DNA of 27,526 nucleotides from a virus: positions 1 through 27,526 of IMG/VR virus record IMGVR_UViG_3300033233_000144. One strand, 5' to 3'. The notes below the pieces were generated by a model that was not told the origin of the DNA, ran no database searches, and saw only the letters and a program-made list of their open reading frames with translations. Both the position numbers and the translations under genes were made by a program. Numbering within the stretch: position 1 is the first letter of the stretch; every line of letters starts with the position of its first letter. Positions 3,414 through 27,526 of this stretch are shown piece by piece.

Positions 3414-3414
3414 G

Positions 3415-4095: not shown

Positions 4096-4123
4096 TGGTT
4101 TGCTCCTAATTATGTAGTATCAT
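4095..4123 (+). promoter_or_regulatory. Possible sigma70-like promoter for the HNH gene
   Basis: TTGGTT (4095-4100) and TATCAT (4118-4123) are separated by 17 bases, a plausible -35/-10 pair located 36 bases before the HNH start codon. The gene faces against the late transcript and needs its own promoter, which makes a promoter here likely. The exact boxes are a reading by eye. Confidence 0.35.
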
Positions 4124-4158
4124 ATACCCGTGTTCCACTTAAAACAAAAGGAGCGGGT

Positions 4159-6584: not shown

Positions 6585-6598
6585 TTTTTACCCTCCAG

Positions 6599-6677
6599 AA
6601 AAAAGGCCCCACCTTGACCGTTATGGTCAAAGCAGGGCCTGCGCTCCGCTTAATAAATCGCACCGAACTATCGGCAC
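6599..6677 (-). terminator. Two-hairpin RNA module ending in an intrinsic terminator, copy A
   Basis: Read on the minus strand, a first hairpin (GTGCCGA-TAGT-TCGGTGC, 6660-6677) is followed by TTATTAAGCGGAGCG. A second, longer hairpin comes next (outer AGGCCC/GGGCCT, inner TTGACC/GGTCAA; 6604-6640) and then TTTTTT. It lies between the 33-residue membrane peptide and the ribosome site of the tail fibre gene. A very similar module with compensatory changes is present at 25340-25417, which argues for selection on the RNA structure. It should lower read-through into the fibre and lysis genes or be processed. Confidence 0.8.
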
Positions 6678-6687
6678 TTGTTTTTTT

Positions 6688-6789
6688 TTACTTGTTTTTC
6701 GTTTTAGGCCGCAACCAGTCCCTTATCTCCATCATGATAAAGAGTACAAAAACTATCTCTATCATCGGGATAACGATTTCGTCTATCAT
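6688..6789 (-). CDS. 33-aa single-TM peptide between giant gene and tail fibre
   Basis: The ATG at 6789 overlaps the TGA of the giant polyvalent gene (ATGA), and the frame runs 33 codons to TAA just before the two-hairpin module. The peptide is one membrane helix (IVIPMIEIVFVLFIMMEI, residues 5-22) with an acidic start and a basic end (RDWLRPKTKNK), giving a clear inside-positive orientation. Coupled translation with the giant gene and this clean topology support a real gene. Possible roles are a small holin-like, antiholin or membrane-anchoring peptide, but the sequence does not decide between them. Confidence 0.6.
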   Translation of the reverse strand: MIDEIVIPMIEIVFVLFIMMEIRDWLRPKTKNK

Positions 6790-9700: not shown

Positions 9701-12700
9701 ATATCTTATTCTTGCCATTGTCGAAGGCACTTACATTATATCGTCCAGTTGCCTTTCCTTTGCTACCAGACAGATGTTTAAGCGAATCACGCACGTCTCT
9801 GAGCTTGTTGGTATCTGTGTCAGACAGGCCATCCTTCACGGCTTTATTAACGGCAGTTGCGGCCTTGTCCCATTCGTTCTCATATTCTTTGCTATATTCT
9901 ACCTTGCTTATCTGCTTCTCCAACGAATACCTATCAGCCTGAGTTTCTCCCGCGCTGCGGCCAGGCTTGGTCGCCAGAGCCACCCCATCAAATCCGTTCT
10001 CCTTGGCATAGGCCAGGATACGCTTCACGCCTAGCTGGTAGATGTTGTCCTTGAGATAGGCGGGCATCTTTTCTTGGTTGGCGGGGTTAGGACCCTGCAT
10101 CTCTTCAATCCTCAAAATGCGCTTGCCGTCGGCGTTGACCTCGTTGAACCGGATGCGGACGATGGGGTTTTTCAAGTCTTGATATTGTGAGTGGCCGTCT
10201 TGCCATCCGGCTCTGTTCTCTCCCTGCATCTCAAGGGCATAAGACTCTCTCTCCTCTTTGGATAACCCTTCCCACGTGGTTTTTGGAATAGCAAACCACT
10301 CTTGCGCCTTAGAAATATCAGCCTCTGTTAGGGGGGGTGGTTTTATTGCACCAGGGGCCGTAACAAACATCTCGCGGTACGATCCCTCAACACTTCCCGG
10401 CTCTTGATAGGTTGAAAAGTGGGTTCCGGTTTCATCATTTATAGCGTAATCATCCAACAGGCTTTGGAGATTGGGGCTATTTTTTACCTGAGATATAGCT
10501 TCTTCAGCGGTATCTACGCCATAAACTGAATCTACTTGCTCGTCTCCTATATAGACCCTGAAGCCTCCGCCGCCATCCGGGATTGCTTTCCACTCTAATT
10601 TGGTATCCCCCAGCACCACATCCTTAAGCTCAACCGTATTGGCCTTGACGAAATCAACCAGCTCGGCCTGCGTCACCTTGTCCGTCGGCTTCTTGGCGGC
10701 AAGAAATTCAGGCAGCCCAACAGCATCCATTTCTGTCTTTTTCACGCCCTGTTTGGCGAGGAAGTTCATCACCCCCTGCGCCTTCATGCCCATAAAGTGC
10801 AACCGGGTAGCCTGTTCAAGCTTGGAGTAGATTGTCTTGGCCGCTTCGATTATCTGCTCCTTGGAATACAGTGATGGTGAACTCTCGCCAACCGTCAAGT
10901 TTTCTTTGGCAGTTGCCTTATCCCCCATGCGTCGTACTCCCTGCGTCACCAACGCCACCAGATCATCGGTAGTCAGGTTCTTCATCGATACGCCCATGCG
11001 CATAAGGAACATGCGGATGTTGGCTATGGTCTTTTTGAACAGGGATGTGTCGTGGTTGGCTTTATTTTCGATGAAGTATGCAAGAGCCTCTTCCCTCTCC
11101 ATCTCTGGGGCGGTATCGCTTGGAACCCTGCGGAAAGCGTCCTGCACCCGATAATCAGTGGCTTTCAGCTTCTCGAACTGGTCAAGGATGGCGTCGTGCT
11201 GCTTGGTGAAAATGGCGTCTTCTCTCATAAGGGAATGCAGCCCTTCATGGAGCATGACATATTCGGCGTCACCGGCCTTGATGTTGTCGGCCACAAGGGT
11301 TATCTGCCGGATGCGCGGATCGTAGGTGCCTGCTATGCTGCCGTCTTTGGAATAGAGGGGTTTTACTTCTTGGGAGTTATCCAGCCGCCGCTCGGAGTCT
11401 TGACTGATCCCATTTTGATTGCCGCCTCTTCCGCCAACTTTATGAGGGAAGAGTGACTTGAGGCCAGCGAGCCCTTTGCCTCCAGTGAGGATGTAGGCTT
11501 GGACTTCGCTTCCGGTGAGGTATGTTGTGGGGTATCCAAATTCATGCTCAAACTCTACCTCGCTTATGCCTGCCTTGTCAAGCATGGCCTGAATTTTTCC
11601 TTCTGGCGCAGAAAGCCAATTCTGGTATCGGCTTGCGGACAACGCTACCGCCGCGACTGGCGTGTTGCCGTCGCCAGACAGCTTATCCACCAGCGCGTTG
11701 AATGTGTCGCCTGATGTAAAATTGTCATCAACAACAACTATCTGGCCGTCATTCGGGGTTTTCCCGGCGAACATTTGCTCATTGCTGAATCTGGCCTTCT
11801 GTGACGCTCCAGTATTGTGTGCGCCGGACTCTTTGGTAGTGTCTAGCCAGTACTCCCCTCCAGTCCGCTCCGCAAGCAACTGTGCATACGCAATAGGAAT
11901 CATATTCAGATGCGGCCCTTCCTTGTGGACCACTGGCACGAAGTACACCTTTTCGCCCTGGGCGATCTTTGCTTTAATATCCGCCAGCAGCCTATCGGTA
12001 ACTGTGTCTCTAACGAGCCTTTGGGCTGCAGCAATATCCCCACCACGCTTCGCCGCTTCGTAGTCCGGGTGGCTTTTAAGCTTGGCAAGTGTGGTGGTCT
12101 TAATAACACTCCCTAAAGATTCAGGGTATAACCCAGGGGGAAGAACCCGAGACGCGGCACTTTTCAACGCTCCATCACCTCGCAACTCATCCACACTCTG
12201 CACGATCCGCAACTTGCCCGATGTGGTCAGCTTGTCATATCCGCGCTTGAGGAAGGTTCGGAGTTCTGTCGCTACCTGATCCGTGGTAGTGCCAGAGGGG
12301 GTGGTGGTCTTGGCATATAGCGGCGCGCCCTTGTCGGTTCCTTTGGTTTTGTCTGGATATGCTATTACTGATTCCTTTTTTATTTCCTCCGCCAGATTGC
12401 CGTTAAATGGAACTCGCCAGCCAATACCGCCAGCCCCCCCGGTGCGGACATTGTTGCTGCTCCAATTATCTCCATCCATCCCGTTATTTTTGACGTACCA
12501 GATATACTCATCGCCAATGGTAAACCACTCCCCGCCACCATAGATGTTCTGCGTGTCAGCGTAGTTGGTGCCATCTGGGACATTCAAGCCATCGGGCCGC
12601 TCGCCATCCTTTTTGATTTCTGCGGATATTCCTTGTAGTGCTGTCTTCGCTCTTTTTTTCTCCGTGCTTGCCGCCTCATCCTCCCGCAACTGGGCGGATT

Positions 12701-15700
12701 CTTCTTCGGTTGCCTCCCTTGCTATCGCCGAAAAAACATATCCTTGCTCGTCTCCAACACCGAATGACATGCCGTCATGCCGGAAATACTTCTTGGATGC
12801 AGAGATGATAGTAACGTACTTCGGCCCATCGTCGCGGGGGTTGCGCATTGTCTCGCCTGGGTGCATCTCCCGCCAGCCGTAACCTTGACCGCCACCAAGG
12901 TGAAATTGCTCATCTGGCAAGACGCCACTCCCCCCAGGCCCGTCAGGCCCATACTTTTTCAGTCCATCAGGGACAGAGCCGGTCACATACCATTGCGACC
13001 TGTCTCCGTCAAATCTGGCGCCGTTCAGTTTTGCGATGGCCCGGTCTTCGTATGGGACGCTCAAGTATATTCTTGGAATTGATGCCTCGGCTTTTTTTGC
13101 TTCGTCCTTTACCGCCTCTGCTTTTTTCTTTGCCGCCCTCACCGAATCAACGGCAGCGTCAAGCCTATCTTGCAATTCGGGATGTTCGCTAATCCCAAGG
13201 CTTTTCAACTTATCAACGCCATTCTGATAAACGTAGTCAGGTGCTTTTTCTTCGACAAACGCCAGCCATTTTTTAATTTCCGGGATTGCCGATTGTCTTC
13301 TTGACTCCTGCTCCTGCGCGTCAGATAATGGGTATATGGTTGTGTTTGTTCCGTACTTTGATGAGTTGGTTTCGACATTCGCGGAGACCGAATATGTCTG
13401 CCCGATCTCCCACCCGTCACTTGTCTCATTTATTTCGACTTTTACCGGATAGTTTTTGCCATCACGGGTTGCCTCAAACCACTTCCGGCCTCGCTTGGTG
13501 ATGGTTAATTTTTCACGGCCAAACCGCCCTGGTGGCAACGCAACGGCTTCCTGTTTTTCGCCAACCATATCATCCTGGGTTGACAAACCAAGGGGGGCAT
13601 TTGTCGCTTTTTCAAGCCGATCCTTGGCCTGCTGCTCGAACAACTGGTCCACCCCATGGGTGAAGTCATTCCACAGGCTGCCTGCTCTTTCCTCCGAACC
13701 GATCTTGCTCTTTGCCGCCTTTACAATAGCATTTGCGTCTTGGATGTTTATCAGCCGGGCTCTTTCCTTTGTCCTAATGGCCGATTCTGGCACGCCTTCC
13801 GCCTTGGCCAAATCCTTTTCTGCTTCGGCAAGGCGGAAGGCGTCAAGGGCTTTTTCTTTCTCGGTCAGGCCTCCGCTCTCAGACGCTTTGTTTCCTCCCT
13901 TATCTGCCGGAGTGACGGCGGGCTTTTCTGCGCCCACCACTGGAGTATTAACCTTATCAGTCTGGACATGGGGGGTCTCCTTTTGTGCGAGATCGGGATA
14001 GTCGGCAAGGACTTCGGCGGGTACGGGCTTCCCTTCTGCCAAAGCCTTTTCGATAACATCTTTATGGGTTACTCTGGCATTGACCCTTTCCAATAATTTG
14101 TCGGTTTCTTCTGGGGTTAAATCAATCTCACCCCGCTGAGCCGCACGAAGTCGCTCCGCTGCATTTTCTGCCACCCCATACCGCAGGACTTCTCCTTTTA
14201 TTCCGTTGGAAACAGCGGTGGATTTATCATTTTTGGTTGGCCGTGATTGTGCTACCTCTGGCCGTGTGGATTCTACCGCGCTGTTCCATTCCTTTGCGGT
14301 CATCTGCCACGGCTCCTTTTGCGTCTCGCTTTTGGAAGACAAATCAGCTTGTGTCTCATTTGCTGCGGGTTTTGAGACACTATTCTCCAGCGCAGACTTC
14401 GCACCAAGGTATTCGATATAGGCTTTGACAAAATCTTGGGTCTTCGCCATACCCTTTGCGCTGAGATTGTAGCCCTGGTTCGTTTCCGGGTTCACCCACC
14501 ACAATTCTTTGCCAACTTTCTTAACGACAGTGAGCCCTTCCGCAAATTTCCTTCCAACCATCGCTTTTGCTTCGGCGGCGTTCTTATCCCCATGCTTACT
14601 TATGATTCTCTTTTCCTCTCTCCACGCCGCAGCATTCTTCTTGTTCACATCATCTTGGGAGTCAGAGACTCCAGCCCACTCCCTTATTGCCTTCCAGGTT
14701 GCGCCCTGTTGCTTGGGGAGAGTCACCCCTGTTGCATCGGTAAACGCCTGCTTCGCCCCTTTGTTCAGCCCATTGGAAAGGTGCTCAAGCGCATAGGCGT
14801 CTTTGCTGAGGATGGCATCGGCAAGACGATAGTGCATGTCGGAAGGAATGCCGTCATGCCCAGCTCGTTCCTTCATAATTTCCGCATACCGCTGTGCAAT
14901 CTGCTCACGGGACATTACTTTTTCGCCAAGCTCCAGCGCCTTCCCGATCTCCGCCTCATGCTTCTTGGCAAAGGTCAAGCCGCCACGTTTGGGATTGGGG
15001 AGACCCTTGACCTTGATCCCTGCCGCTTCCAGCTTGGCGCGGATCTCTGCCGTGTCGCCCTTGACGATGATGGACTTTTCGCCTTGGGGTTCTATGGTGA
15101 TTTTTGCGGATGTAGCGGGAGCCGTAGTGCTGACCGGCTCAGTGGGGGACGGGGCTACTGCGGCTTGCTCGGTTCCGGCAGGTCCGGCACCGGCTTCATC
15201 AACAGGTCTCGCAACCCATTGATCTGCTCCGGGGGTACTCCTGACGCCTCCATTTCCTTCAATGCCTGTTCCGCTTTCCGAAACCCTTCTTGTATTGAGT
15301 TCATTGGTGGCCTCCTTGTTTATATTATCGGCATTGCCTCCCAAAATAGCAAGCTTTTTGCCGGTTCTTCCCTCGTACATCGCCCCGACAAGGTTGAAAA
15401 GCTGCTGAGGGAAAGACACGGTACGGTGCAGACCATTCTTTCGGATTACCGAAAACACGTCCGCCATGTCCGCCTGGTCTTCTTTGGGTATGGCCTTCTC
15501 AAAATGTTCAAGGGCCAGATCAGGGTTATCCATCCCGATCGGGACATGGGCCGGGTCATACTTCACGTCTTCCCGCTGAATGACGCCGTTCCCGCGCTTA
15601 ATACCATCTACAGGCAGCATGTCGAACGGGCTAAGAATCTTCGTCTCTTTTCCATCCAGAACGGCATTCCCCTGACGGTCATACCCGGAATGGTGATATT

Positions 15701-17633
15701 CTTCTCCGTCATTAAGGACAACCTTGTCGCCAGGGCGCAGCTCGCCAACAGGAATATCTTGGCCAACAAGATCAAATCCGCGTTGCTCCATGTCCGTAGC
15801 GGATTGATGAAGCTTTAAAGATGGGCCTGTTTGCATTAACTCGCGCGCTTGAACCTGCATGTAATCCCACGCCTTAGCCTGAGACTTGTTCAGCGCCTTT
15901 CCGTCTCTCACTTTATTGATTGCAGATAGGACGTTGAGTTTGTTTACTGACTTGGCATAATCGGTGCCATTCTCTTTGTCGTAAGCGGCAACCGTTGACT
16001 GCTTAAACCAGTCCGTGTTCGTGCTGGGAAATCTTCCCGTGATCTCTTGCTCGTTCCCCGTGAGGCCATTGTTCGTTACCCTGCCAACTGCCCCAGATTT
16101 AAGGTCTGATTCCATTTGTAATATGGCAGGACTGATCTCGGCAGGGATCAGGTCAGGATTAGGGGTGTACGCTGGGATTTCTCCCATGGAAGGATCAATC
16201 TGGGCAGAGTTGTTATCTTGCGGAATCTGGTCAACCGGCTTAGACCTGATCTGAAACTTTCCGGCATCGTTCTGGAACACCTCGTAATCATCCGTCGCCA
16301 AAGTTGCTGACTTGCTCTTCAGTGCCAGCACTGCGCCTTTCTCGTTCTGGTATTCCTTGGCAAGCAGGACATTGGGTCGCTGATTTACCCCGGCCACATA
16401 ATTTCCTTCCGGGTCCACGCCCCTGACAGAATCGCTATTTGGTCGCAAAATCGTGTTCGGTGTCTGGACATCTCGTGCCGTAAACCCGTCACCATATATC
16501 ACTCCTTCCGGAGCTGGAAGAAGTACTTGAGGGGTATCAACCGGGACACCATCAACCGACTCTATATTCACCTGAGATTGCTTGAAGTCAGGGCCGGTAA
16601 AATCAGGAGAATTACTGTCTGGGAAAGGGGAATCTTTCGATACAATCGAAGAATTGACCACATCCTGCGCCGCAGCAATCGCGTCATCCACGTTCTGTGC
16701 ATCTACAATCTTTCTCTGGGAAATAGCGTCAAGGATGGGTTTCTTGAACGAATCCCGGAGCGGCTGATCTTTGACAAACTGTGTTGCCTGATCGTGGTTT
16801 ATTTCCCCGGTGTCAAGCCCAGTGTTTACTACGTCAGTAATAGTTTTCGCCGCGCTACGTTGCCCGAAGTACTGGTGGCCGCCAAACAACACGCCCATTG
16901 CGGCAGCATGACCTAGGCTCTCTGGAGAAAACGGGTCGATGCTGTCCGACTCCTTATCGTAACCTCCTGCGCGAAGTATTTCCTTTTCGGCAATCTGCCC
17001 GCCTACCCCAATTCCGGCATTGGCCGCCACGCCTCGCCCTATTGAGCCAAGCAGCGTATCCCCAGCCATAGGTGCCTTCATCAGTGCCGCAGTTTCCAAA
17101 CCCCCCTTGAGCGCTTCGACAGTGGCAGTGTTTGTATCATGACCGGCCCTAACTCCTGAGATACCGGATTGCATTTCTGAGTCTGCTATCATCGCGGGAG
17201 TCATAGTCTCTGGAGCAACAACCCACGGGGCAATCTCTTCCACCGCCCGGCCAAATCTACCGATCTTGCCAACCTTGTCACTGGCGGCTTGCTGGTCCTT
17301 GTAGTCTGCCGCCTGCTCGATAAACGAACTAACTTGGTCTGCTAGAGCATGATCCCCGCGCACCGCATCAATGACAGAGGCAAACGGCAAGGCCAACATC
17401 CCGCTAGACCCGGCAAGACTTGCCGCTACGCTCTTAAGAGGCTTTTCAACATACTCGGTGACATTCTCGCCCGCAGTCATTGGCTTATCGCGCCAACCGT
17501 CATTCTTGGTGCTGAACGGGTCGTAATCTACCGGGACAAATTTAGCGGAAGACGGCGAAGAATTATTATCCGAGGCAACAGGGATATTATTATCCGAGGC
17601 AAACGGGTCGTGATCTACCGGAACAAATGGCAT
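6786..17633 (-). CDS. Giant phage polyvalent protein (3615 aa), probable ejected virion protein
   Basis: A very large multidomain protein encoded where P22/N4-like phages encode ejected internal proteins. Visible regions: an N-terminal FVPVD(H/Y)DPF motif twice (3-11, 33-41); Gly/Ala-rich hydrophobic stretches (about 65-260); a linker region containing a nested frame (about 775-835); a basic module with KRGGLTFAKKHE (about 848-900); the polyvalent motif KPVPAEVLADYPDL (about 1200); a DUF5710-like segment (RIYLSVPYEDRA ... ARFDGDRSQWYV, about 1520-1560); a phosphoribosyltransferase-like PRPP loop IVVVDDNFTSGDTF (about 1965); zincin-like HEGLH with a downstream EREEALAYF (about 2130-2190); a GHSQYQDLKNPIVRIRFNE ... 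RILRIEEMQG module (about 2480-2560); and a long helical C-terminus (about 2756-3615) with a hydrophobic stretch near 3330-3350, resembling polyvalent-protein-associated domains. Expected role: enter the cell with the DNA and counter or reprogram the host. No RNA polymerase motif was recognised. A GGGGGAT ribosome site precedes the ATG. Confidence 0.88.
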   Translation of the reverse strand: MPFVPVDHDPFASDNNIPVASDNNSSPSSAKFVPVDYDPFSTKNDGWRDKPMTAGENVTEYVEKPLKSVAASLAGSSGMLALPFASVIDAVRGDHALADQVSSFIEQAADYKDQQAASDKVGKIGRFGRAVEEIAPWVVAPETMTPAMIADSEMQSGISGVRAGHDTNTATVEALKGGLETAALMKAPMAGDTLLGSIGRGVAANAGIGVGGQIAEKEILRAGGYDKESDSIDPFSPESLGHAAAMGVLFGGHQYFGQRSAAKTITDVVNTGLDTGEINHDQATQFVKDQPLRDSFKKPILDAISQRKIVDAQNVDDAIAAAQDVVNSSIVSKDSPFPDSNSPDFTGPDFKQSQVNIESVDGVPVDTPQVLLPAPEGVIYGDGFTARDVQTPNTILRPNSDSVRGVDPEGNYVAGVNQRPNVLLAKEYQNEKGAVLALKSKSATLATDDYEVFQNDAGKFQIRSKPVDQIPQDNNSAQIDPSMGEIPAYTPNPDLIPAEISPAILQMESDLKSGAVGRVTNNGLTGNEQEITGRFPSTNTDWFKQSTVAAYDKENGTDYAKSVNKLNVLSAINKVRDGKALNKSQAKAWDYMQVQARELMQTGPSLKLHQSATDMEQRGFDLVGQDIPVGELRPGDKVVLNDGEEYHHSGYDRQGNAVLDGKETKILSPFDMLPVDGIKRGNGVIQREDVKYDPAHVPIGMDNPDLALEHFEKAIPKEDQADMADVFSVIRKNGLHRTVSFPQQLFNLVGAMYEGRTGKKLAILGGNADNINKEATNELNTRRVSESGTGIEGNGGVRSTPGADQWVARPVDEAGAGPAGTEQAAVAPSPTEPVSTTAPATSAKITIEPQGEKSIIVKGDTAEIRAKLEAAGIKVKGLPNPKRGGLTFAKKHEAEIGKALELGEKVMSREQIAQRYAEIMKERAGHDGIPSDMHYRLADAILSKDAYALEHLSNGLNKGAKQAFTDATGVTLPKQQGATWKAIREWAGVSDSQDDVNKKNAAAWREEKRIISKHGDKNAAEAKAMVGRKFAEGLTVVKKVGKELWWVNPETNQGYNLSAKGMAKTQDFVKAYIEYLGAKSALENSVSKPAANETQADLSSKSETQKEPWQMTAKEWNSAVESTRPEVAQSRPTKNDKSTAVSNGIKGEVLRYGVAENAAERLRAAQRGEIDLTPEETDKLLERVNARVTHKDVIEKALAEGKPVPAEVLADYPDLAQKETPHVQTDKVNTPVVGAEKPAVTPADKGGNKASESGGLTEKEKALDAFRLAEAEKDLAKAEGVPESAIRTKERARLINIQDANAIVKAAKSKIGSEERAGSLWNDFTHGVDQLFEQQAKDRLEKATNAPLGLSTQDDMVGEKQEAVALPPGRFGREKLTITKRGRKWFEATRDGKNYPVKVEINETSDGWEIGQTYSVSANVETNSSKYGTNTTIYPLSDAQEQESRRQSAIPEIKKWLAFVEEKAPDYVYQNGVDKLKSLGISEHPELQDRLDAAVDSVRAAKKKAEAVKDEAKKAEASIPRIYLSVPYEDRAIAKLNGARFDGDRSQWYVTGSVPDGLKKYGPDGPGGSGVLPDEQFHLGGGQGYGWREMHPGETMRNPRDDGPKYVTIISASKKYFRHDGMSFGVGDEQGYVFSAIAREATEEESAQLREDEAASTEKKRAKTALQGISAEIKKDGERPDGLNVPDGTNYADTQNIYGGGEWFTIGDEYIWYVKNNGMDGDNWSSNNVRTGGAGGIGWRVPFNGNLAEEIKKESVIAYPDKTKGTDKGAPLYAKTTTPSGTTTDQVATELRTFLKRGYDKLTTSGKLRIVQSVDELRGDGALKSAASRVLPPGLYPESLGSVIKTTTLAKLKSHPDYEAAKRGGDIAAAQRLVRDTVTDRLLADIKAKIAQGEKVYFVPVVHKEGPHLNMIPIAYAQLLAERTGGEYWLDTTKESGAHNTGASQKARFSNEQMFAGKTPNDGQIVVVDDNFTSGDTFNALVDKLSGDGNTPVAAVALSASRYQNWLSAPEGKIQAMLDKAGISEVEFEHEFGYPTTYLTGSEVQAYILTGGKGLAGLKSLFPHKVGGRGGNQNGISQDSERRLDNSQEVKPLYSKDGSIAGTYDPRIRQITLVADNIKAGDAEYVMLHEGLHSLMREDAIFTKQHDAILDQFEKLKATDYRVQDAFRRVPSDTAPEMEREEALAYFIENKANHDTSLFKKTIANIRMFLMRMGVSMKNLTTDDLVALVTQGVRRMGDKATAKENLTVGESSPSLYSKEQIIEAAKTIYSKLEQATRLHFMGMKAQGVMNFLAKQGVKKTEMDAVGLPEFLAAKKPTDKVTQAELVDFVKANTVELKDVVLGDTKLEWKAIPDGGGGFRVYIGDEQVDSVYGVDTAEEAISQVKNSPNLQSLLDDYAINDETGTHFSTYQEPGSVEGSYREMFVTAPGAIKPPPLTEADISKAQEWFAIPKTTWEGLSKEERESYALEMQGENRAGWQDGHSQYQDLKNPIVRIRFNEVNADGKRILRIEEMQGPNPANQEKMPAYLKDNIYQLGVKRILAYAKENGFDGVALATKPGRSAGETQADRYSLEKQISKVEYSKEYENEWDKAATAVNKAVKDGLSDTDTNKLRDVRDSLKHLSGSKGKATGRYNVSAFDNGKNKIFAEENVAIGRVEEVIGKELAQKIEDSNRESGTLSGLDLRAGGEGLKKLYDTQLPAMLEAYGKGKMGTADVVLEKGGMRPHPDGMMVETGEERASMPYLPIGQNTPASYPLFSRSREDLLSEMKKYASSKPEAPKTDDEITRLKDRVINSASSSVAAKGLSAAYDGLKAFSYPASRTDDAAVAASVLLEQMGKNFHQTAEFKGKLNEVSKEYSDATTRAGKMLDLMQTSTGVLADKTFNAMPKEEGYDFISRIQNGKEQKTPELQAIADTISGMFDSTWKEANEVVPDSTAYRENYFTGMWEDADAVAKHFSDQKSLEGSKAHTKAKIFDTIDDGIKAGFVPKGTPLDMAFAKLADMQKFITTHRVLQQMTEDGTAVLVHAGEDAPPGYTLIPKPYGVATKQDGKSYHYAAKEDVAQVFTNYLSKSLYENKYVGPIYTGYMGVANALNQFQLGVLSAFHAGFTGGESVISHFALGVKALARGDMEAAAKFMLQSPSALWKNPMLGDKVLRAFHGQDVIGQEIPQIVKWLEMAGARDAVDNRLRTSSTDKMLKNWSNGEKLSAIARSPSAMVEQMARPILEWLVPRQKFGVFSEMAQEWNRVNPNASHEEMRLAMQYIWNRVDSRLGQVVYERLLAHNVAKNVVQALVRAPGWTGGTIVEVGGGLHDFAKVFQAIKNGEKPVMTDKMAYTISLLTVTGLVNGLMTLALTGQQPAGMDFLAFRTGKTDERGNPERFLLPTYAKDIYAYFNKPGTTLLNKTHPLISLMGDIAKNRDYYGTQIRDKQDNSFAQAADVGKYAAKAFVPFWMRGTQKAYSRGDSLPSMLGPLIGIMPATSEFTKTPAQKMMSDINNEKPHGTVTKADFDRRQLKYELELRMRNKDNSAWQEARNYAKIGKLTSKDLLSMQRAIKTQAAQQQFKRLGIQDELRVFSVATDAERRLFRPVLVQHRDKLNDLPPEQATELRGQLQEALRPR
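15155..15304 (-). CDS. Nested 49-aa gene inside the giant gene (other frame, same strand)
   Basis: Within the giant gene, on the same strand but in another frame, AAGGAGG lies six bases before an ATG at 15304. The frame runs 49 codons to TAG at 15155. The peptide begins MNSIQEGFRKAEQALKEMEA, continues SGVPPEQINGLRDLLMK and ends in a Pro-rich PEPSKPQ tail, so it reads like a helix-turn-helix hairpin. In the giant frame the same bases give a Gly/Ser/Ala/Pro-rich low-complexity linker, as expected where a second frame constrains the first. It may be a true overlapping gene, or the relic of a gene absorbed when two parts of the giant gene fused. No function is assigned. Confidence 0.45.
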   Translation of the reverse strand: MNSIQEGFRKAEQALKEMEASGVPPEQINGLRDLLMKPVPDLPEPSKPQ

Positions 17634-17646: not shown

Positions 17647-18636
17647 TCAAGGTTGGTACATCAAGTATTTTCCTGCACGATTCGGGTCTGGGACATACCA
17701 GTTCCCATCTTTTCCCTGTTTTGCGTTTCCTGGGGCAGGCGACGCGCTCCCTGTATTGGCTCCAGACTGGAAGGGGGCGAAATGCCCGGTACCGTCCTTC
17801 ACGTCCTTCGACCCTAATCCCAGAAGCCCACTCCGTGCGGGTGTTGGGGCTGTGTCTATCTTGTAAGTTTGAAGTGGTTGCTTATGTGCTGCAAGCTCCT
17901 GATTTAGAAGGGCAAGAGTGTCCGCCCCCTTTGCCGTGTTGCCAGAGTTATAAGCGTCAGCAATATCATTTGCCATGTTGGTCCATTTTGTCTGGAGCGC
18001 GGTGCTTACCGTGGGCACATTAGCGCCACCCGCCGTATGCCCGTTCGCCGCAGCCGACCTTGCGTCTTCTGGCGACATTCCCATATCAAGAAATTGTTGG
18101 TATCGCGCAGACGGGTCTAGACTTCCCCTACTTCCCCTGTAGCCTTGGGAGAAAGCATAAGCCTTTGCGTTGGACTCATTGGCATCTGCCTTCAATTTAG
18201 CAAGCTGTGCTTGGGCTACTGCTGCCTGATCCGCAGAAAGGTTATGGATATTATCCCCTGAAGGAATATCATCGCCAGGGAAGAAGAATTTTCCCGTCGA
18301 GGTATCTTGAGCCACAGGCCTGTTGGCATACTGCGCCCGTTCCCCAGCGCCAGCTTCCCACACCTTTGCATTAGTCACAGGGGCTCCATTTGCCGCGTCA
18401 GCCCTGGAAACACCAACACCAGAGTCATTAACACCAACATCCTGTCGGTTATATTGCGTGGTATCCCGCTCTGTCTGAAACTGGTTGTTAAGCCTGGCTA
18501 TATTCTCATTCTGCTTCGCCTTCCACTGTTCAAGTTGCGCCATGGCGTCAAATTTATTTGCATTATCAATCGTTTCGGAAACACTATGCGCTGCGCCCTC
18601 TACACCACCAGCAACCATCTGACCCAAGAGTCCCAT
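17647..18636 (-). CDS. Putative internal virion/ejection protein (329 aa)
   Basis: This is a hydrophilic, Ala/Asn/Gln/Gly-rich protein starting with a short glycine-rich hydrophobic segment (MGLLGQMVAGGVEGA). It is followed by a coiled-coil-like helix (FDAMAQLEQWKAKQNENIARLNNQF) and low-complexity regions, ending in NWYVPDPNRAGKYLMYQP. Its start overlaps the previous stop (TAATG), and the giant gene begins 14 bases after its stop. The composition and the place directly before the giant protein fit a DNA-ejection or core protein. There are no enzyme motifs, and the exact homologue among ejection proteins cannot be named. Confidence 0.6.
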   Translation of the reverse strand: MGLLGQMVAGGVEGAAHSVSETIDNANKFDAMAQLEQWKAKQNENIARLNNQFQTERDTTQYNRQDVGVNDSGVGVSRADAANGAPVTNAKVWEAGAGERAQYANRPVAQDTSTGKFFFPGDDIPSGDNIHNLSADQAAVAQAQLAKLKADANESNAKAYAFSQGYRGSRGSLDPSARYQQFLDMGMSPEDARSAAANGHTAGGANVPTVSTALQTKWTNMANDIADAYNSGNTAKGADTLALLNQELAAHKQPLQTYKIDTAPTPARSGLLGLGSKDVKDGTGHFAPFQSGANTGSASPAPGNAKQGKDGNWYVPDPNRAGKYLMYQP

Positions 18637-19247
18637 TACTGTCCCCCTTTATAGTTCTGCGCGGTTTTCTGGATGCGCTGCATTGCCGTGGTAATTTCCT
18701 GTCTCTGTGCAGGGGGGAGTTTAGCCATGCTCTGTTGCATTTGCTGCATGAGCTTCGCTGGGTCTATCCTGCCCGCCGCAACCTCCCCTTTGATGTAGTC
18801 TTGCACCGCAATGGAGAAAGCCATTTCGAGATGAGCTTGATCTAAAGTGAAAATACGGGCCGCTTTTGCCTTGGAAACCAAGTCATTGAAAAACTCTTCG
18901 GCCCCAAGCAGTTTCACCGCGTCGGCCACATCCGTACCGGATGCCCGTTGAGCCGCATCAAGTTTCTGCAAAACAAGCAGGAGCGCGTTGACTAATGCCG
19001 TCACCGGATCGCCTGTTTTTAGAACAGTCATAAACTCGCCCTGTGTTTGGTCAGAGTTTAGAAGCTCTAACCCCTTTGCCTTGTATATTGCCTCATCTGT
19101 CTTCATAGTATTCTGACTTGGAGAAACCTGCCTAAACGCCGCGGATTGTTGTGCCGGTGGACCTGTCGGCGGAACTGGGGCCATATTCTGACCGATAAGC
19201 CCAGGAGAAGAAGCAGGGGTTAGTTGCGCATTCGGAGTAGGTATCAT
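18636..19247 (-). CDS. Putative internal virion protein (203 aa)
   Basis: This is a soluble, mainly helical protein with a Pro/Gln/Ala-rich N-terminus (PNAQLTPASSPGLIGQNM and PPTGPPAQQS) and a C-terminus of amphipathic helices rich in Met and Gln (DPAKLMQQMQQSMAKLPPAQ). The middle has LVSKAKAARIFTLDQAHLEM. It overlaps its upstream neighbour by ATGA and its downstream neighbour by TAATG, so it belongs to a tightly coupled set of three. Position in the ejection block suggests an internal head or core protein. No family is certain. Confidence 0.58.
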   Translation of the reverse strand: MIPTPNAQLTPASSPGLIGQNMAPVPPTGPPAQQSAAFRQVSPSQNTMKTDEAIYKAKGLELLNSDQTQGEFMTVLKTGDPVTALVNALLLVLQKLDAAQRASGTDVADAVKLLGAEEFFNDLVSKAKAARIFTLDQAHLEMAFSIAVQDYIKGEVAAGRIDPAKLMQQMQQSMAKLPPAQRQEITTAMQRIQKTAQNYKGGQ

Positions 19248-19918
19248 GCTTTCACCTGTGGGATTGCGAGGTTCTGCGTAAGGTCGCCGCTAAATGTTTT
19301 ATAGGTGGACCCGGCCAACTCTGGACTGGCGGCTACGTTTGCAAGGCTCGTTGAATCCATCCTCGTCCCTATCGTCCCTGGAGTCGGTGTAGATGCAGAG
19401 GGGGTAGCAACGCGCATGTTGGCCTCAAAATCTCTTTGGGTCTGGGCTTGGTCTGCCGTAGCATATCCTTTTGCTACCCCAAACATTCCGTCTGTCACCG
19501 CTTTAACGCCCATACCCTGAACATATGGGTTCTTTAAGAAGCTGGTGGTTGTGTCCGGAACGACCGGGATACCACCACCAAACCCCGCCATCACGTCTGT
19601 ATAATAGGCGCCTGTCGGTAAACCAGAGTCTAGAAAATTGCTTGTCGCTTGCGCTTCGGTCAATGCAGTCCCTGTTCCCATCCCTGCCTCCCCAACACCG
19701 CTAGCGACAGTTGGCACCGCCCCGAACGCACTTGAAATTCCAGCGCCAGCCGCGCCCACCAGGCCGCCGGTTATAACCCCCTTAATGATATTCCCGCCGG
19801 TCACAGCTGAGGTTACGCCGCCCACCGCCGCGCCGATAAGGGCGCTACCGGCGACGAAACCTGCCGTAGCCCCAAACGCTGCCGTTACTCCTATCGCTGC
19901 CCCTATTGTCGCGCCCAT
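19244..19918 (-). CDS. Gly/Ala-rich membrane-active internal virion protein (224 aa)
   Basis: The first 80 residues are almost entirely Gly, Ala, Val, Ile and Thr (MGATIGAAIGVTAAFGATAG, later GGVTSAVTGGNIIKGVITGG), giving several glycine-zipper membrane stretches. The remainder is soluble, with TADQAQTQRDFEANMRV and a Pro/Thr-rich end. Glycine-zipper N-termini are typical of phage ejection proteins that insert into the host envelope during DNA entry (P22 gp7/gp20-type roles by position). The start overlaps the stop of the radical SAM gene (TAATG), so the two are translated together. Confidence 0.65.
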   Translation of the reverse strand: MGATIGAAIGVTAAFGATAGFVAGSALIGAAVGGVTSAVTGGNIIKGVITGGLVGAAGAGISSAFGAVPTVASGVGEAGMGTGTALTEAQATSNFLDSGLPTGAYYTDVMAGFGGGIPVVPDTTTSFLKNPYVQGMGVKAVTDGMFGVAKGYATADQAQTQRDFEANMRVATPSASTPTPGTIGTRMDSTSLANVAASPELAGSTYKTFSGDLTQNLAIPQVKA

Positions 19919-20877
19919 TATAGCACCTCATATTCAAAGATCATTGGATAGCCACCAAGGGCTTCTACCATCTCAAAGGTTTTCTCTTTCATTGCATCTG
20001 TCTCCCCTGGAGTGTTACGCATAAACAGCATGATTCTGTCAACCCCGGCCTTATCAAGCCGGTCAACCGTCCGATATATCTGTGCGTCCTTGACACCTTT
20101 TTTTAAGATATTGTTTCGGTATTCCTCATCCCCAGACTCGACCCCGATTGCGCAAGCACTCAGACCGTGGTCAATCAGAAAACTCAGGTGATCAGGTTGC
20201 ACATCTGCCCGCAGGAAACTCAGGAACGGAACATCGTTATCTTGAAACTGATCCCGCCAGGTCCGCATGTAATAAGGCAAAGTCTCATCCGTAAAATAGA
20301 ACATATCTGGACTTTGCCGCTTCAGAATCTCCAGGTCGTCCCGGATGCTGGTCTTAACCCGGACCTTCTGCGGTAAGTTACGCACCTCGCAAAATGAACA
20401 CCGATATGGGCAGCCCCTACTGTGCGAGTAGGGGATCATCTTTTTCCCTGCCAGGAACGGCACACCTCGTCCGAACTCATGCCCAGTCAACCCGGAATAA
20501 TCCGGGAGAATATTGATATTATCGTCGAGCAACTGCCGGTCAAATACTTCCGTACTGCCAGACAAGAAGAAATCAACCAGCTTTTCACCTTCTCCCCGAC
20601 AGACATAATCAAAACCATCGATCTTGCCGCCCTTTCTGGCATAGACTCCGCCAGCAATCTTAGGTACTTTAATCCTTGCCATGATCGGAATAGACCGCTC
20701 ATAATCATGTACTGTGACAAACGAGCAGCAGACATAATCAAAGCCCCGACCGGTAAAGCCCTCTTCGAGCGGAATAATCTCTGTTTCGATCCCGGCCTCT
20801 TTGCACAATGCCGACAACACAGCCGCCCCATGGTTCCACCTGATATACAGGGGATAGTAGGTGAAGGCTATGCGCAT
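19918..20877 (-). CDS. Radical SAM protein with B12-binding-like N-terminal domain (319 aa)
   Basis: The ATG at 20877 overlaps the end of the GNAT-like gene (ATGCGCATAG), which decides this start over a longer form from 20931. Residues 1-105 read as a Rossmann-like B12-binding-type domain (GAAVLSALCKEAGIETEII, DYVCCSFVTVHDYERSI, KIAGGVYA, FDYVCRGEGEKLVDFF), but the cobalamin motif DxHxxG is absent. The radical SAM core follows: Cys156-x3-Cys160-x2-Cys163 in RGCPYRCSFCEV for the 4Fe-4S cluster, then FYFTDETL, GVESGDEEYRNNILKKG and MRNTPGET. It stops soon after this, so it is short for the B12/radical SAM family. Expected chemistry is reductive cleavage of S-adenosylmethionine; the substrate is unknown. 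Its site among ejection genes suggests a virion or host-entry target. Confidence 0.9.
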   Translation of the reverse strand: MRIAFTYYPLYIRWNHGAAVLSALCKEAGIETEIIPLEEGFTGRGFDYVCCSFVTVHDYERSIPIMARIKVPKIAGGVYARKGGKIDGFDYVCRGEGEKLVDFFLSGSTEVFDRQLLDDNINILPDYSGLTGHEFGRGVPFLAGKKMIPYSHSRGCPYRCSFCEVRNLPQKVRVKTSIRDDLEILKRQSPDMFYFTDETLPYYMRTWRDQFQDNDVPFLSFLRADVQPDHLSFLIDHGLSACAIGVESGDEEYRNNILKKGVKDAQIYRTVDRLDKAGVDRIMLFMRNTPGETDAMKEKTFEMVEALGGYPMIFEYEVL

Positions 20878-21320
20878 GGCTTGCAATACCCGAACACGGC
20901 CATATCGGTAGAAACCCCATTGTGGTAACATGCTCCCTTTAGAGTTCCTTCCCGATCAACCCCCAGAGAAGTAATAAACCGAATCGCCGCCCGGTGCTTC
21001 ACGCTCTCCAAACCAATAATCTTGATGCAATCGGTATTCGCAAACATCCAGGCAAAAGCATCTTTACAGGCAGCAATAGCCACCTTTCCCCGATATTCCG
21101 GCAATATCCCTAAATGAACATTGAAAAGATGCTCGTTATAAGGAACAAAGGCAAACACACTGCCCTCGTTTGGCATCAGGACAAAAATCCCAGGATGAGA
21201 CAGTAGGCCACAAGCCGTTTCTCCTTCTCTGCGGCACCGGAATCCATTCACCGGGATATGCACAGAATCATCGTCAAGCACCCGGCTCACCTTCAATATG
21301 TCTGACAGATCGCACCGCAT
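20868..21320 (-). CDS. GNAT-like N-acetyltransferase, possibly P22 gp14-type (150 aa)
   Basis: The fold signature is GNAT-like: strand FNVHLGILPEYRGKVAIAA then a helix (CKDAFAWMF), and the later CIKIIGLESVKHRAAIRFITSLGV with the typical neighbour-residue/helix/LG ending. The acetyl-CoA loop RGKVA departs from the usual RxxGxG/A, so catalytic activity is uncertain. In P22 the small gene 14, whose product is described as acetyltransferase-like, lies between the tail-needle gene and the first ejection gene. Here the gene follows a 246-aa protein and precedes the ejection cluster, so it may be the equivalent head-assembly factor. It is coupled to the radical SAM gene by an overlapping start. Confidence 0.7.
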   Translation of the reverse strand: MRCDLSDILKVSRVLDDDSVHIPVNGFRCRREGETACGLLSHPGIFVLMPNEGSVFAFVPYNEHLFNVHLGILPEYRGKVAIAACKDAFAWMFANTDCIKIIGLESVKHRAAIRFITSLGVDREGTLKGACYHNGVSTDMAVFGYCKPCA

Positions 21321-21326
21321 CGCTTT

Positions 21327-22067
21327 TTACCACCCAGGAGTCTTGGGCCAAGTCAACGGGTACGAATAGATATTGGCCATGGAAGTGAGTTGCGGTTTAT
21401 ACAAAGCGGAAAGATCAGATAGCGCCTTTGCTTTTGCACCTGCATTCAAAACACTATCCGGCTGAACCTGGATATTCTCGTAAGCACTTTGGTATTGCTG
21501 CATTACAGGAGCAACCGCGCTCGTAAACGACGCCCTATTGGACGAATCCAGCTTGTCCATATCAACCGCGACATCCATTTGCTTGAGGGACGTTTGCAAC
21601 TGTGCTGTTGCTGCTTGATGCTGGGCCTGTAAACCCATTTGATCGTTGGCCGCCTGGCTCGCACCAACAGCTTGAACCGAACCCGAATACCGTGTCTGGT
21701 TAAGTGATTGATCCGCATTCTGACTACTTAGACCAGCCGCTGCGCTGGTAGAAGCGTCCTGTGCGGCAATCGGGGCCGAGGCATCAATAGCCGCCTTCTC
21801 TGCCGCCCCAGCTGCAATAGAGCTATTTACAAGGCCACGCCCCGAAGCAAAGGCCGTTCCGTTCGCCACCGCGCTTTGAAGATAGGGACTGTTTTGAGCC
21901 AGCAAGCCATTCATTTGACCAGCCACAGTCTCATTGCTGGTGATGGCCCTAGGGACATTATTCGGTTGAGGAATAGCATTGATCTGTGCCAATGATGCAT
22001 CCGGGGTAGCAGTAGGCGCGGCTGTCGGGGTATATGCAGGTGTTGCTGGTGTGGTATATAGTGACAT
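21327..22067 (-). CDS. Ala/Gln-rich structural or ejection protein (246 aa)
   Basis: The N-terminus is a Pro/Thr/Ala-rich linker (TTPATPAYTPTAAPTATP). The rest is a long low-complexity helical region rich in Ala, Ser, Gln and Asn (AAAGLSSQNADQSLNQ, QAQHQAATAQLQTSLKQM), ending in a hydrophobic aromatic tail (SMANIYSYPLTWPKTPGW). There are no catalytic motifs. Elongated helical Ala/Gln-rich proteins at this place in P22-like gene orders are tail-needle or internal virion proteins, so a needle, plug or ejection role is proposed from position and composition. It starts five bases after the upstream stop. Confidence 0.55.
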   Translation of the reverse strand: MSLYTTPATPAYTPTAAPTATPDASLAQINAIPQPNNVPRAITSNETVAGQMNGLLAQNSPYLQSAVANGTAFASGRGLVNSSIAAGAAEKAAIDASAPIAAQDASTSAAAGLSSQNADQSLNQTRYSGSVQAVGASQAANDQMGLQAQHQAATAQLQTSLKQMDVAVDMDKLDSSNRASFTSAVAPVMQQYQSAYENIQVQPDSVLNAGAKAKALSDLSALYKPQLTSMANIYSYPLTWPKTPGW

Positions 22068-22071: not shown

Positions 22072-24135
22072 TTACCTCATTCCTCTACGGAAACTGTAAT
22101 GAACAAGAATTGAATTGATCGTGAATGGCATAGTAACCGCAGAATGCCCATAGAACAACAAAGATATATTTTCAGCCGTCCCGCAAATTTCACACTCGGT
22201 GGTTGATAATCCTGTGGAATCCCAAAAGAAACTATCCCAGGTGACTTGGTCCCATCTGCTTGTCTTTGAAAGGAACATGCCTTTCGCAACATCTACCGCT
22301 TGGGCATACTCCCCAGAACCGTAACCCAGGTAGTAGCCGAAGTTAAATTCAAGGAAAGATGTCCCCACAATCTCCACCGATGCCTTCCGGTATCTTTTGA
22401 GGAACCGAGGACTTCCGGCGGAAGAGTAGTTTAGACAAAGACTAGAATCTATCGCGGCCCCATCAAAAGAAGAACCCCGCTCTAATTGATACACATACCC
22501 GTTCGACGAACCAAAAAAGGAAATGTCGGTTCCTGCCAAGTTTTTACCTTCCGTCGCACATACTACATCGTTTGGGAAAAACACTGGCATGGAACCCATC
22601 CGTTTACCGTTTACCACGGTGACAAAGATCCCATATCCATCATTAAAAAAAACACGGTACTGGCTCTTGGTTCGACACAGGGTTGAGCATGACACCTTAC
22701 CTACACGGTCATCAATGAACGGCGCGATATTATGGGTGAGCGTAGTTTGCGTAAAGTTGCCAAATTGCAGAGAGGTGTCCAGCGACACTACCCCACGATC
22801 ATCAAAAGCCAAAGTCTGCCCCATATCTTCCGCGGTGTAATCGACCGCCCCAGACCCAGAATTAAAAGTGATTAAGTTCCAATCGCTTGCACTGGACCCA
22901 TAGAGAATAGAGGTGGTGGACCTTCCATAAACCGACATGGCTTGGATCGTTGACGAACCAGGCAACGGGCCGATGGCCGTGACTGTATCCCCCGTGGCAA
23001 TCTCCGCCGCCCCGTTGATCGCTGTCCAATCGTAAGGAAGCCCGGGGGCACAACACATGATGGACGACCCCAAAGATACCCAAAGACGAGCTTTATTGAT
23101 AGCCACATGCTTGGGGGTATCAACAGAAGCACCAGTAGGAATTGGCACATAAACAACCCCGTCAAACTCGAAAGCTGTTCCTACACCGTCAGCTCCATAT
23201 ATACGGATAGTGTTAGCCTGGCCTGATAAATTCCCATTAACCGCTTCAATTCTTCCACCCGCAGGGATAACAATGGCGGTCTGCGCCCCAGAGAGCGTTA
23301 TCGTGGTTGTGCCAATGGTTGCTGCACCAGCGACAAAATTACCGCCCGCGGGGGTACCAATAACGAAGATACCCGCTGCCGTACCGGTCCAAGCCCCCGA
23401 CCTCAACGCCGCCCGTTTTAGAGTAGCAGTTACTGCCCCCTGAGTAAGTGTTGCTCCCTCTGTCGGCACACCGGTCCCGGATGTAAATGACACTTGATTG
23501 AACAGCGTTACCTGTGTCCAGCCGGAAGAGGTTGACTTGTAAATGTTCTTTGCTGTTCCGCCTGTATTATTTCGCCAGGCATAGACTGCATCGTTGTAAA
23601 TGACTACACCGCACACCGGCCCCGACCCTGGTACCGCACCAATATCTGCACGGTAAATGTCGGCAACTGCTGCCCGTGTTCTGGCAACGTCCTCACCCGA
23701 CAACGGAAGCACGTTTATCGCTGATATTACACCAACACTTACCCCCGCATCTGTGACGGTATCTCCGATAGCAAACGTCCCTGTGGTTTGCACCAATGTC
23801 AGGTTTGTTCCTGACAAATAGGCGAGAACCCCTGTGCCAGAAGGCCCGGAAATTGTATGGCTCACCGTCGGCACCGACAGGATCGCAGTTACCGAGAATA
23901 TCACCGTTGGGATACTGGGATCACTTGGCGAAGTGCGCCCGTCATATCGTTCATATCCATCAATACGGGCATACCCACCTGTCGGCGAACATTCAAAGTT
24001 CACCGCATCACTGGCCACCCCTGTCCGGAGTGAAAGGGTGGGTGTGATAAGGTCAAGCCCGCCTGCACAAACTATAGAGTCCATCAAAACCCGAATACCG
24101 TTTGAGCTCCTTCTATTGCCGGATGATATTCTCAT
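22072..24135 (-). CDS. Putative tail nozzle-like structural protein (687 aa)
   Basis: This large beta-rich virion protein follows the adaptor, the position of the P22 nozzle gene. It opens with a basic stretch and GGLDLITPTLSLRTGVASDAVN, a start seen in many podovirus nozzle-like proteins. A Thr/Gly/Val-rich beta-sandwich-like insertion follows (about 70-170), then blocks ending in repeated hydrophobic strands and aromatic turns that suggest a beta-propeller or blade architecture (AINKARLWVSLGSSIMC, TTSILYGSSASDWNLITF, KSQYRVFFNDGYGIFVTV). The TGATG overlap with the adaptor stop supports the first ATG; an ATG 17 codons later is an alternative. The exact family is not confirmed. Confidence 0.65.
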   Translation of the reverse strand: MRISSGNRRSSNGIRVLMDSIVCAGGLDLITPTLSLRTGVASDAVNFECSPTGGYARIDGYERYDGRTSPSDPSIPTVIFSVTAILSVPTVSHTISGPSGTGVLAYLSGTNLTLVQTTGTFAIGDTVTDAGVSVGVISAINVLPLSGEDVARTRAAVADIYRADIGAVPGSGPVCGVVIYNDAVYAWRNNTGGTAKNIYKSTSSGWTQVTLFNQVSFTSGTGVPTEGATLTQGAVTATLKRAALRSGAWTGTAAGIFVIGTPAGGNFVAGAATIGTTTITLSGAQTAIVIPAGGRIEAVNGNLSGQANTIRIYGADGVGTAFEFDGVVYVPIPTGASVDTPKHVAINKARLWVSLGSSIMCCAPGLPYDWTAINGAAEIATGDTVTAIGPLPGSSTIQAMSVYGRSTTSILYGSSASDWNLITFNSGSGAVDYTAEDMGQTLAFDDRGVVSLDTSLQFGNFTQTTLTHNIAPFIDDRVGKVSCSTLCRTKSQYRVFFNDGYGIFVTVVNGKRMGSMPVFFPNDVVCATEGKNLAGTDISFFGSSNGYVYQLERGSSFDGAAIDSSLCLNYSSAGSPRFLKRYRKASVEIVGTSFLEFNFGYYLGYGSGEYAQAVDVAKGMFLSKTSRWDQVTWDSFFWDSTGLSTTECEICGTAENISLLFYGHSAVTMPFTINSILVHYSFRRGMR

Positions 24136-24800
24136 CAGAAACCCAACTCCACGGTTATCTGCGGGGCCTGCTCAGCTTCGAGCCTGGAAAACATAGCACT
24201 GTAAAGTCCAGATTGTTCCTGAATCACTTCCATTGCGGCCTCATAAGACCCGTACTTCATCAGGGCTTTATGAATAATGGCCCAATGAAACCGAGCTGGC
24301 ATATCTGGGACATCCGTGTCAGATGCTAATGTTTGTGGGACCTTGTAGTATTCTCCACGCACCGTATAAATATCATCTGGGATAGGCCCAAGAATCAATG
24401 ACTTGTCTGGCATAACCGAAACGGTAACGGGACTGGTTGTCAAAGACTGTCTTGAGCCAAACAGATAATAATCGCGAAACGTGGTGTAATTGCAATTTGC
24501 TAAAAAAATCTCGGTGCCAACCCCCGCACTGGCGCGAAAGGAACGAAAGGAATCTTCCTTCCATCTAGCAACCATCCCTAATGACGGAGCGTATATCTGC
24601 TGTCCGGCAACAGTATCAAAAGAAATCGATTGCCTCATCCACTCCCAATCGTTCCTGGCCTCCTGTATCTCGACCCATGCCTGCGCAACCCAATCGACAA
24701 GCCGCTTCATTTCTCCGGTCTGCGAACCTACCGTAGATGGCCCATTACTGGCAATGCCTGCCTCTTGTCTTACTTGCTGACATAGTTGCAGGAAGTTCAT
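24135..24800 (-). CDS. Head-to-tail adaptor-like protein (221 aa)
   Basis: The first 60 residues match the typical podovirus adaptor opening: a helix with LCQQVRQEAGI, GPSTVGSQTGEMKRLVDWVA, then QAWVEIQEARNDWEWMRQS. A strand-rich middle follows (FDTVAGQQIYAPS) and helices at the end (HWAIIHKALMKYGSYEAAME). Such proteins (SU10/P22 gp4-like) ring the portal and connect it to the nozzle after packaging. The gene has a strong AAGGAG ribosome site, and its stop is overlapped by the start of the nozzle-like gene. A small hairpin with REP-like sequence lies just upstream. Confidence 0.78.
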   Translation of the reverse strand: MNFLQLCQQVRQEAGIASNGPSTVGSQTGEMKRLVDWVAQAWVEIQEARNDWEWMRQSISFDTVAGQQIYAPSLGMVARWKEDSFRSFRASAGVGTEIFLANCNYTTFRDYYLFGSRQSLTTSPVTVSVMPDKSLILGPIPDDIYTVRGEYYKVPQTLASDTDVPDMPARFHWAIIHKALMKYGSYEAAMEVIQEQSGLYSAMFSRLEAEQAPQITVELGF

Positions 24801-26500: not shown

Positions 26501-27526
26501 TTAGTTGTCCGTCAGGACAGACGCGCCAACCTCTGCCACCGCACACTGCATACTATTCAGCAACACCGCGTTGAAATAGCAGGAAGCACCAACATAACCA
26601 CGCTGGCCGGTAGGATCGTTCTTGTCAATCTGCCCAGGTTTCAGGTCGTAAACATCTATGGCCTTGGTGCCGCGCAGGGCAACATCACCCCAGGCGTTGC
26701 GACCAGAGATAACCACCTGATATACGTCAGGATAAGAGCCCGTGGTGCTGGTCAGCCCGTAGGTGGCAGCATCAACGCTGGTTGCGGAATCCTGAACACT
26801 AACCAACTCGGGTGAGGCAATGATACGGAACTCTTCGCAAGTTCCGAACTCATACGGGCTGACACTCTGCATGGTGCCGTACTTCTCAACAGGGGTGAAC
26901 CCTGGCAAATCGCGAACATCCGGCTTCAGATCGGTATGAATGAAAACAAAATATGAGGCCGCTACTGCCGAGGTGCCAAACTTTGGAGAAGCAGACAGGA
27001 TTTCAGTTACCTTGTCGGTGTGCTGAAGATCGAGAGCTTTGGTGATTTTTCGCAGCATCTTGAGCGACAACTTGCCGTTTACGGTAGCGCGAGAAGTCCC
27101 GGTTCCGCCATAAAACTTGTTGGTCCCGCCCTTAATCTGGCCAAAACGAACCAACTCACGGACCAAGGACAGCCGCTCACCAACCATAGTCTTCATTGCG
27201 CCAGGGACATCATCCTCGTACAGATCGGCGGTGCGCTTGGTATAGCCAAACAAAACACTGTACTCATTCAGTGTGATGGTAATATCCTGGGGAACCAAAG
27301 TCTCCGCGTTGGGCGTCACGCCCTCGTTGGCAATGTGCTGCTGGGCCAGAGCTGTGGCCCTGTCGCCTGCACCGTTGGCAAAATAGGTGTTTGGGCTTGC
27401 AGCAGTCGCATTGACCGGCAGCCACCGTCGATAAACAACGGTATCGCCCTGATTCTTCGGCATGGGCCGAGTGTCTCCGATGAGGCCAAGGACCTCTCTC
27501 GGTACTGCATGTTTCAAGATTTCGCC
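26501..27526 (-). CDS. Major capsid protein, N4-gp56 family (partial, N-terminus off window)
   Basis: This is the shell-forming HK97-fold protein of the virion. The window cuts the gene at its 5' side: the frame stays open to the edge, reading GEILKHAVPREVLGLIGDTRP, so the true start lies beyond base 27526. The opening GEILKHAVPREVL ... PMPKNQGDTVVYRRW and the following QDITITLNEYSVLFGYTKRTADLYED match the characteristic start of N4-gp56-type capsid proteins. The later sections (KFGTSAVAASYFVFIHTDLK, YGTMQSVSPYEFGTCEEFRII, YQVVISGRNAWGDVALRG) are also typical. About 341 residues are visible, ending SVLTDN. Portal and terminase genes would be expected farther upstream, outside the window. Confidence 0.92.
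   Translation of the reverse strand, partial: GEILKHAVPREVLGLIGDTRPMPKNQGDTVVYRRWLPVNATAASPNTYFANGAGDRATALAQQHIANEGVTPNAETLVPQDITITLNEYSVLFGYTKRTADLYEDDVPGAMKTMVGERLSLVRELVRFGQIKGGTNKFYGGTGTSRATVNGKLSLKMLRKITKALDLQHTDKVTEILSASPKFGTSAVAASYFVFIHTDLKPDVRDLPGFTPVEKYGTMQSVSPYEFGTCEEFRIIASPELVSVQDSATSVDAATYGLTSTTGSYPDVYQVVISGRNAWGDVALRGTKAIDVYDLKPGQIDKNDPTGQRGYVGASCYFNAVLLNSMQCAVAEVGASVLTDN

Follow-up and report, generated by a model that had tools for sequence, protein, structure and literature searches.

The ejection genes of many short-tailed phages are preceded by a gene for a GNAT-like protein, P22 gp14 among them, whose role has long been obscure. In the viral DNA analysed here (27,526 nt, hereafter the window), a gene of this kind is accompanied by one for a radical SAM enzyme, which raises the question of whether the two genes form a unit and what such a unit would do among structural genes. 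The paired enzyme provides a handle on this role; radical SAM chemistry leaves a stable mass change, from which the target of the slot could be read by mass spectrometry of virions or infected cells. Radical enzymes encoded within the structural operon of a phage would also be rare.

Organization of the late genes

The late genes of the 27.5-kb window are all encoded on the minus strand. They start with a major capsid protein of the N4-gp56 type, which touches the window edge (26501..27526; phrog_1357, E 3.4e-53), and continue through three small genes to a head-tail adaptor (24135..24800; PF24175 SU10_adaptor, E 2.2e-21), a 687-aa protein designated 'stabilization protein' in relatives (22072..24135; assigned by position and by homologues in MW202426 and OR779980), a 246-aa protein with no family match (21327..22067), the 150-aa GNAT-fold protein (20868..21320), and the 319-aa radical SAM protein (19918..20877). 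These are followed by a glycine-rich 224-aa protein (19244..19918), a 203-aa protein of the ejection block (18636..19247) and a 329-aa protein (17647..18636), the latter two with no confident family match, and then by a giant protein of 3615 aa (6786..17633; PF18974 DUF5710, E 1.8e-8) and a tail fibre. The genes of the stretch that begins with the adaptor and ends with the 329-aa protein are tightly packed, with junctions of -1, +4, +6, -10, -1, -4, and -1 nt.

The GNAT and radical SAM genes overlap by 10 nt (CCATGCGCATAG, 20868..20877, minus strand), and the stop codon of the radical SAM gene overlaps the start of the glycine-rich gene by 1 nt (TAATG). An earlier note on this DNA had described both overlaps, and both are present, but the gene at the second was described there as an ejection gene, an identity that comes from synteny: the glycine-rich protein matches no family in Pfam or PHROG, and the gene that follows the radical SAM gene in a second carrier contig, L116, belongs to phrog_598 (DNA ejection, E 8.5e-23). 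By its position, the glycine-rich protein is probably the first ejection protein.

The positional counterpart of the giant protein in phage Y3 is annotated as DdrB-like ParB superfamily; counterparts of 3995 and 4813 aa are found in the relatives G002 and G008, and that of phage VvAW1 is called DarB-like antirestriction. The tail fibre (4704-6584, minus strand) contains the Mtd second domain (PF21916, E 5.8e-22), a fold used by targets of diversity-generating retroelements. Positions 1-7000 of the window showed no pair of template and variable repeats, only a 101-nt imperfect direct repeat at 5951-6168. An HNH endonuclease ORF (4060-4707, plus strand; phrog_59, E 1.2e-43), encoded opposite to the late genes, overlaps the ORF at 3415-4095 (minus strand) and the end of the fibre gene.

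The radical SAM protein and its GNAT-fold partner

The radical SAM protein is a member of PF04055 (E 3.2e-13; 50.6 bits against a cut-off of 29.5), the match covering residues 168-321 of the longest ORF. That ORF opens at 20931, and the start was set instead at the Met codon at 20877 because the two orthologues described below begin with MRVAFTYYPL and MKVAFTYFPL; this is the only correction to the ORFs of the earlier note, which are present on the minus strand. Its reading of the cluster motif also holds: CPYRCSFC is kept within a partial TIM barrel (C156, C160, and C163), and the three divergent proteins agree fully in these cysteines, in the GEGE, ESGDE, and PGET motifs, and in much of the barrel. 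The N-terminal part (approximately residues 1-145) appears to be a B12-domain-like Rossmann region, and the translation lacks DxHxxG, again as previously read. Many radical SAM proteins with a B12-binding domain bind cobalamin without this motif.

The top 13 Foldseek matches of the protein are all B12-fold radical SAM enzymes (MgmA, E 4e-13, AprD4, CysS, TsrM, OxsB, and TokK), and AprD4, which possesses a B12-binding fold and does not use B12, is the best sequence match among solved structures. The NCBIfam B12/radical SAM models match the protein, all under their own cut-offs. None of the 16 radical SAM equivalog families (PhpK, MJ_1487, HpnJ, AprD4, and others) reached its cut-off, the best score being 47 bits against a cut-off of 600, and no B12-binding domain was matched in the Pfam search. 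The protein has the cluster motif, and apparently also the two-domain order, of MgmA (9ccb), AprD4 (6fd2), CysS, TsrM, OxsB, and TokK, but these are about 450-730 aa in length, whereas the window protein has 319 aa and no C-terminal domain, and its identity to them is about 14-18%. The low TM-scores (0.43 to the best match) reflect a shallow AlphaFold model (pLDDT 74, pTM 0.56), in which the domain packing and the cobalamin pocket are unreadable. As judged from these comparisons, the radical SAM protein is probably of the B12-fold type, with a B12-domain-like N-terminus.

The relationship of the partner to P22 gp14 is indicated by its match to phrog_651 (head morphogenesis; P22 gp14 family; E 1.4e-8) and by the hhalign comparison of a three-sequence profile of its subtype (GNATa) with P22 gp14 (E 1e-5, probability 82). 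Its GNAT fold is seen in the AlphaFold model (pLDDT 70), which matches SpeG/RimJ-type GNATs in Foldseek (E about 2e-7, TM up to 0.78). The window protein scores under the Pfam cut-offs for DUF2824 (PF11039; 18.3 against 25 bits) and Acetyltransf_1 (15.2 against 20.7 bits), and its counterpart in another contig, L019, which is 56% identical, passes that for DUF2824 (28.1 bits). The acetyl-CoA loop pattern R/QxxGxG/A is absent from the three GNATs of this subtype, which read RGKVAI, RGKLAI, and RGKEAI, and acetyltransferase activity is uncertain because the loop glycines are replaced.

In P22, the GNAT-related gene 14 (DUF2824, phrog_651) occupies the same position, directly ahead of the ejection protein gene 7, and, in agreement with the earlier note, no radical SAM gene is annotated at that site, in contrast to the window. 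The gene 14 product is annotated as head morphogenesis and T7 gp13 as 'probable scaffold', and no convincing match of T7 gp13 as a relative of the GNAT was obtained (hhalign probability 0.7). According to the available part of a report on SIO1 and the Cobaviruses, the GNAT pc40 is encoded beside internal virion protein genes and is likened to T7 gp13, and a role in morphogenesis is suggested for it (PMC6775973); unlike the window pair, pc40 is described in that part with no mention of a radical SAM gene.

Carriers of the pair and the variable slot

Apart from the window, only the viral contigs L019 and L116 were found to encode full-length orthologues of the radical SAM protein (71 and 58% identity, respectively), and all statements on the pair refer to these three cases. 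L116 was found only by a motif-pattern scan, of which a stricter version returned just the two known carriers; no relatives were obtained when viral contigs and GenBank phages were scanned with single sequences, or genome contigs with alignments. In all three carriers, the radical SAM gene comes after the same GNAT subtype and directly ahead of ejection genes, and GNATa was found only together with the radical SAM gene. A conserved pair beside ejection genes, for which the earlier note had suggested looking in related phages, is thus present in both L019 and L116.

The ejection block of L019 is related to that of the window, and its slot contains GNATa, a 122-aa HExxH protein, and the radical SAM gene. 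The intervening gene (L019:17205-17573, plus strand; HEVLH) overlaps the radical SAM start by 4 nt, and its product has no match in Pfam, PHROG, or PADLOC. L116 is a 16-kb contig whose portal is P22-like (35% identity to that of Vibrio phage VvAW1), as are its capsid and ejection block; it also encodes a head-closure protein of the gp10 type (phrog_578). Its GNAT and radical SAM proteins are 43 and 58% identical to those of the window, and its genes overlap by the same 10 nt in nearly the same sequence (CCATGCGCGTAG; L116 and window compared, AAGCCATGCGCGTAG against AAGCCATGCGCATAG). In an all-against-all comparison, these two proteins were the only ones that L116 has in common with the window or the L019 contig, the remaining matches being antisense frames of the same two genes, and the pair can therefore be regarded as a transferable unit. 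The arrangement is not due to chance, given two full-length orthologues with conserved cysteines and gene order. Both genes are intact and conserved, and two lineages share them as a unit in the same slot with the same overlap; the pair looks like a real, mobile, and selected two-gene module.

Between the window and L019, the radical SAM protein (70.5% identity) ranks second in conservation among the eight block genes compared, after the capsid (74%) and ahead of the GNAT (55%), the 246-aa protein (51%), the stabilization protein (48%), the 203-aa protein (47%), the adaptor (42%), and the glycine-rich protein (41%). The corresponding pN of 0.22 against a pS of 0.76 indicates purifying selection, although synonymous change is saturated and no dN/dS value is claimed. 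The window and L019 are joined in the trees of the 246-aa (99/98), glycine-rich, and 203-aa (100/99) proteins with 99-100% support, and are not joined in those of the capsid and stabilization proteins; for the capsid, the AU test (p 0.18) gives no decision for or against a clade of the two. The pair and its surrounding segment thus appear to have travelled together within the clade, which fits linkage as well as function. A newly acquired, decaying piece of stray cargo would accord with the patchy distribution, but is scarcely credible for a gene of this rank in conservation, with intact motifs and a conserved junction over deep divergence. The earlier note had likewise argued against stray cargo, and the presence of an intact, conserved, GNAT-paired gene in three carriers from two unrelated structural backbones bears this out.

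An alignment-based scan for relatives with the same capsid returned 80 loci. In close relatives in which it can be read, the slot between the 246-aa and glycine-rich genes contains another GNAT or a cupin and no radical SAM gene in seven of nine cases: a phrog_1249-type GNAT in L004, L011, L014, L016, and G002/L090, and a cupin (phrog_24280/12032) in L017/L092 and L026. L024 has neither GNAT type, nor a cupin, nor the radical SAM gene. Among 49 records of relatives, PF04055 was above the cut-off only in the L019 contig, so that, with these slot contents also considered, the radical SAM gene is a minority option in a variable slot. VvAW1 carries a PHA00672-type cupin (phrog_24280/12032) in the same slot, immediately ahead of its DNA-ejection gene; as in L017 and L026, a different fold replaces the GNAT, and there is no radical SAM gene. 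The same swap therefore occurs in P22-like phages, and the exchange of GNAT for cupin is found in two capsid lineages (L017:20560-21014, L026:16411-16923, and L150:21928-22422). Relatives that have the same block and lack the gene, the first half of a pattern that the earlier note would have counted against a role tied to the ejection genes, are thus common; the second half, unrelated phages carrying the gene at random sites, was not found, and the one distant carrier (L116) holds the pair at the same site. In L008, the stabilization gene is present on both strands end to end (L008:5992-8513), which looks like a palindromic assembly artefact.

Possible roles of the pair

Our tentative reading is that the GNAT and radical SAM genes are a two-gene late module, located in the 'GNAT slot' that precedes the ejection genes of short-tailed phages, whose action is linked to assembly and whose target is handled at an assembly step. 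The enzyme would reduce SAM at its [4Fe-4S] cluster and then carry out a radical reaction with its B12-fold domain, most likely a C-methylation or an AprD4-like rearrangement. It would act with the partner GNAT on a shared target in late infection, while particles are built; this target would be a component of the assembly step, either the GNAT itself or an ejection or virion protein. We infer the joint action of the two proteins, their late expression from the operon position, and the radical chemistry from motif and fold; the substrate is a guess. The slot itself points to a virion target, given the annotation of P22 gene 14 and the likening of pc40 to T7 gp13. The narrower suggestion of the earlier note, that a virion or ejected protein may be what the enzyme modifies, did not find support: no homology was detected between the virion proteins beside the pair in the window and those in L116, and no peptide shared between the lineages rose above chance as a substrate motif. 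Post-translational modification of such a protein by the phage's own radical SAM enzyme and gp14-related GNAT before packaging is unlikely, but, if true, would mean that the assembly of phage particles includes maturation by a radical enzyme.

Because the virion proteins that flank the pair in one lineage have no homologues beside it in the other, a target in the host or among small molecules has almost the same likelihood as one in assembly. The pair may be a late-expressed accessory (moron-like) module acting on a host molecule or small metabolite, such as an envelope component, a nucleotide, or a cofactor, and located in the late operon only because the slot tolerates insertions. Enzyme-like genes (two GNAT types and a cupin) are indeed swapped there across relatives, most of which lack the radical SAM gene, no virion protein is common to both carrier lineages, and the nearest characterized B12-fold enzymes include the small-molecule enzymes AprD4, OxsB, and TokK. 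However, the two lineages agree precisely in the site of the pair, in its GNAT subtype, and in its overlap, and the GNAT is close to a family annotated as morphogenesis, which favours the link to assembly.

That the radical SAM protein is non-catalytic and instead assists the GNAT structurally or as a chaperone is improbable. The slot neighbours annotated elsewhere as assembly factors (P22 gp14 and the 'probable scaffold' T7 gp13) and the degenerate acetyl-CoA loop would suit such a role, but the invariance of the three cluster cysteines, of GEGE, ESGDE, and PGET, and of much of the barrel argues against it. Still less can be said for a split Elp3-like pair modifying tRNA, a reading that we reject. 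Elp3 unites the same two folds, and weak Foldseek matches to it were obtained (E 5e-4), but its cluster motif has a longer first spacing than the CxxxCxxC of the window protein, whose top fold and family matches are all B12-domain enzymes; moreover, the genes are separate, no fused KAT domain is present, and the GNAT is SpeG-/gp14-like. A defence function was also rejected, as PADLOC gave no more than a match of 34 residues to PDC-M51A (21.5 bits), located at the cluster motif.

A phage radical SAM gene linked to ejection genes was not found in the literature searched, and the mention of radical SAM in a paper on N4 relates to an HExxH motif. GNATs next to ejection genes have been described before, and, within the literature searched, the paired radical SAM enzyme appears to be new. 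The window protein has no match in the GenBank phage collection. The plasmid and phage matches to the L116 protein are generic B12-radical SAM proteins, with unrelated neighbours in the two inspected. One B12-binding radical SAM protein encoded by a phage is gp36 of Streptomyces phage SF3 (tblastn E 3e-7 to the L116 protein), which is only about 31% identical over half of the protein and has thymidylate kinase and NUDIX genes, rather than ejection genes, as its neighbours.
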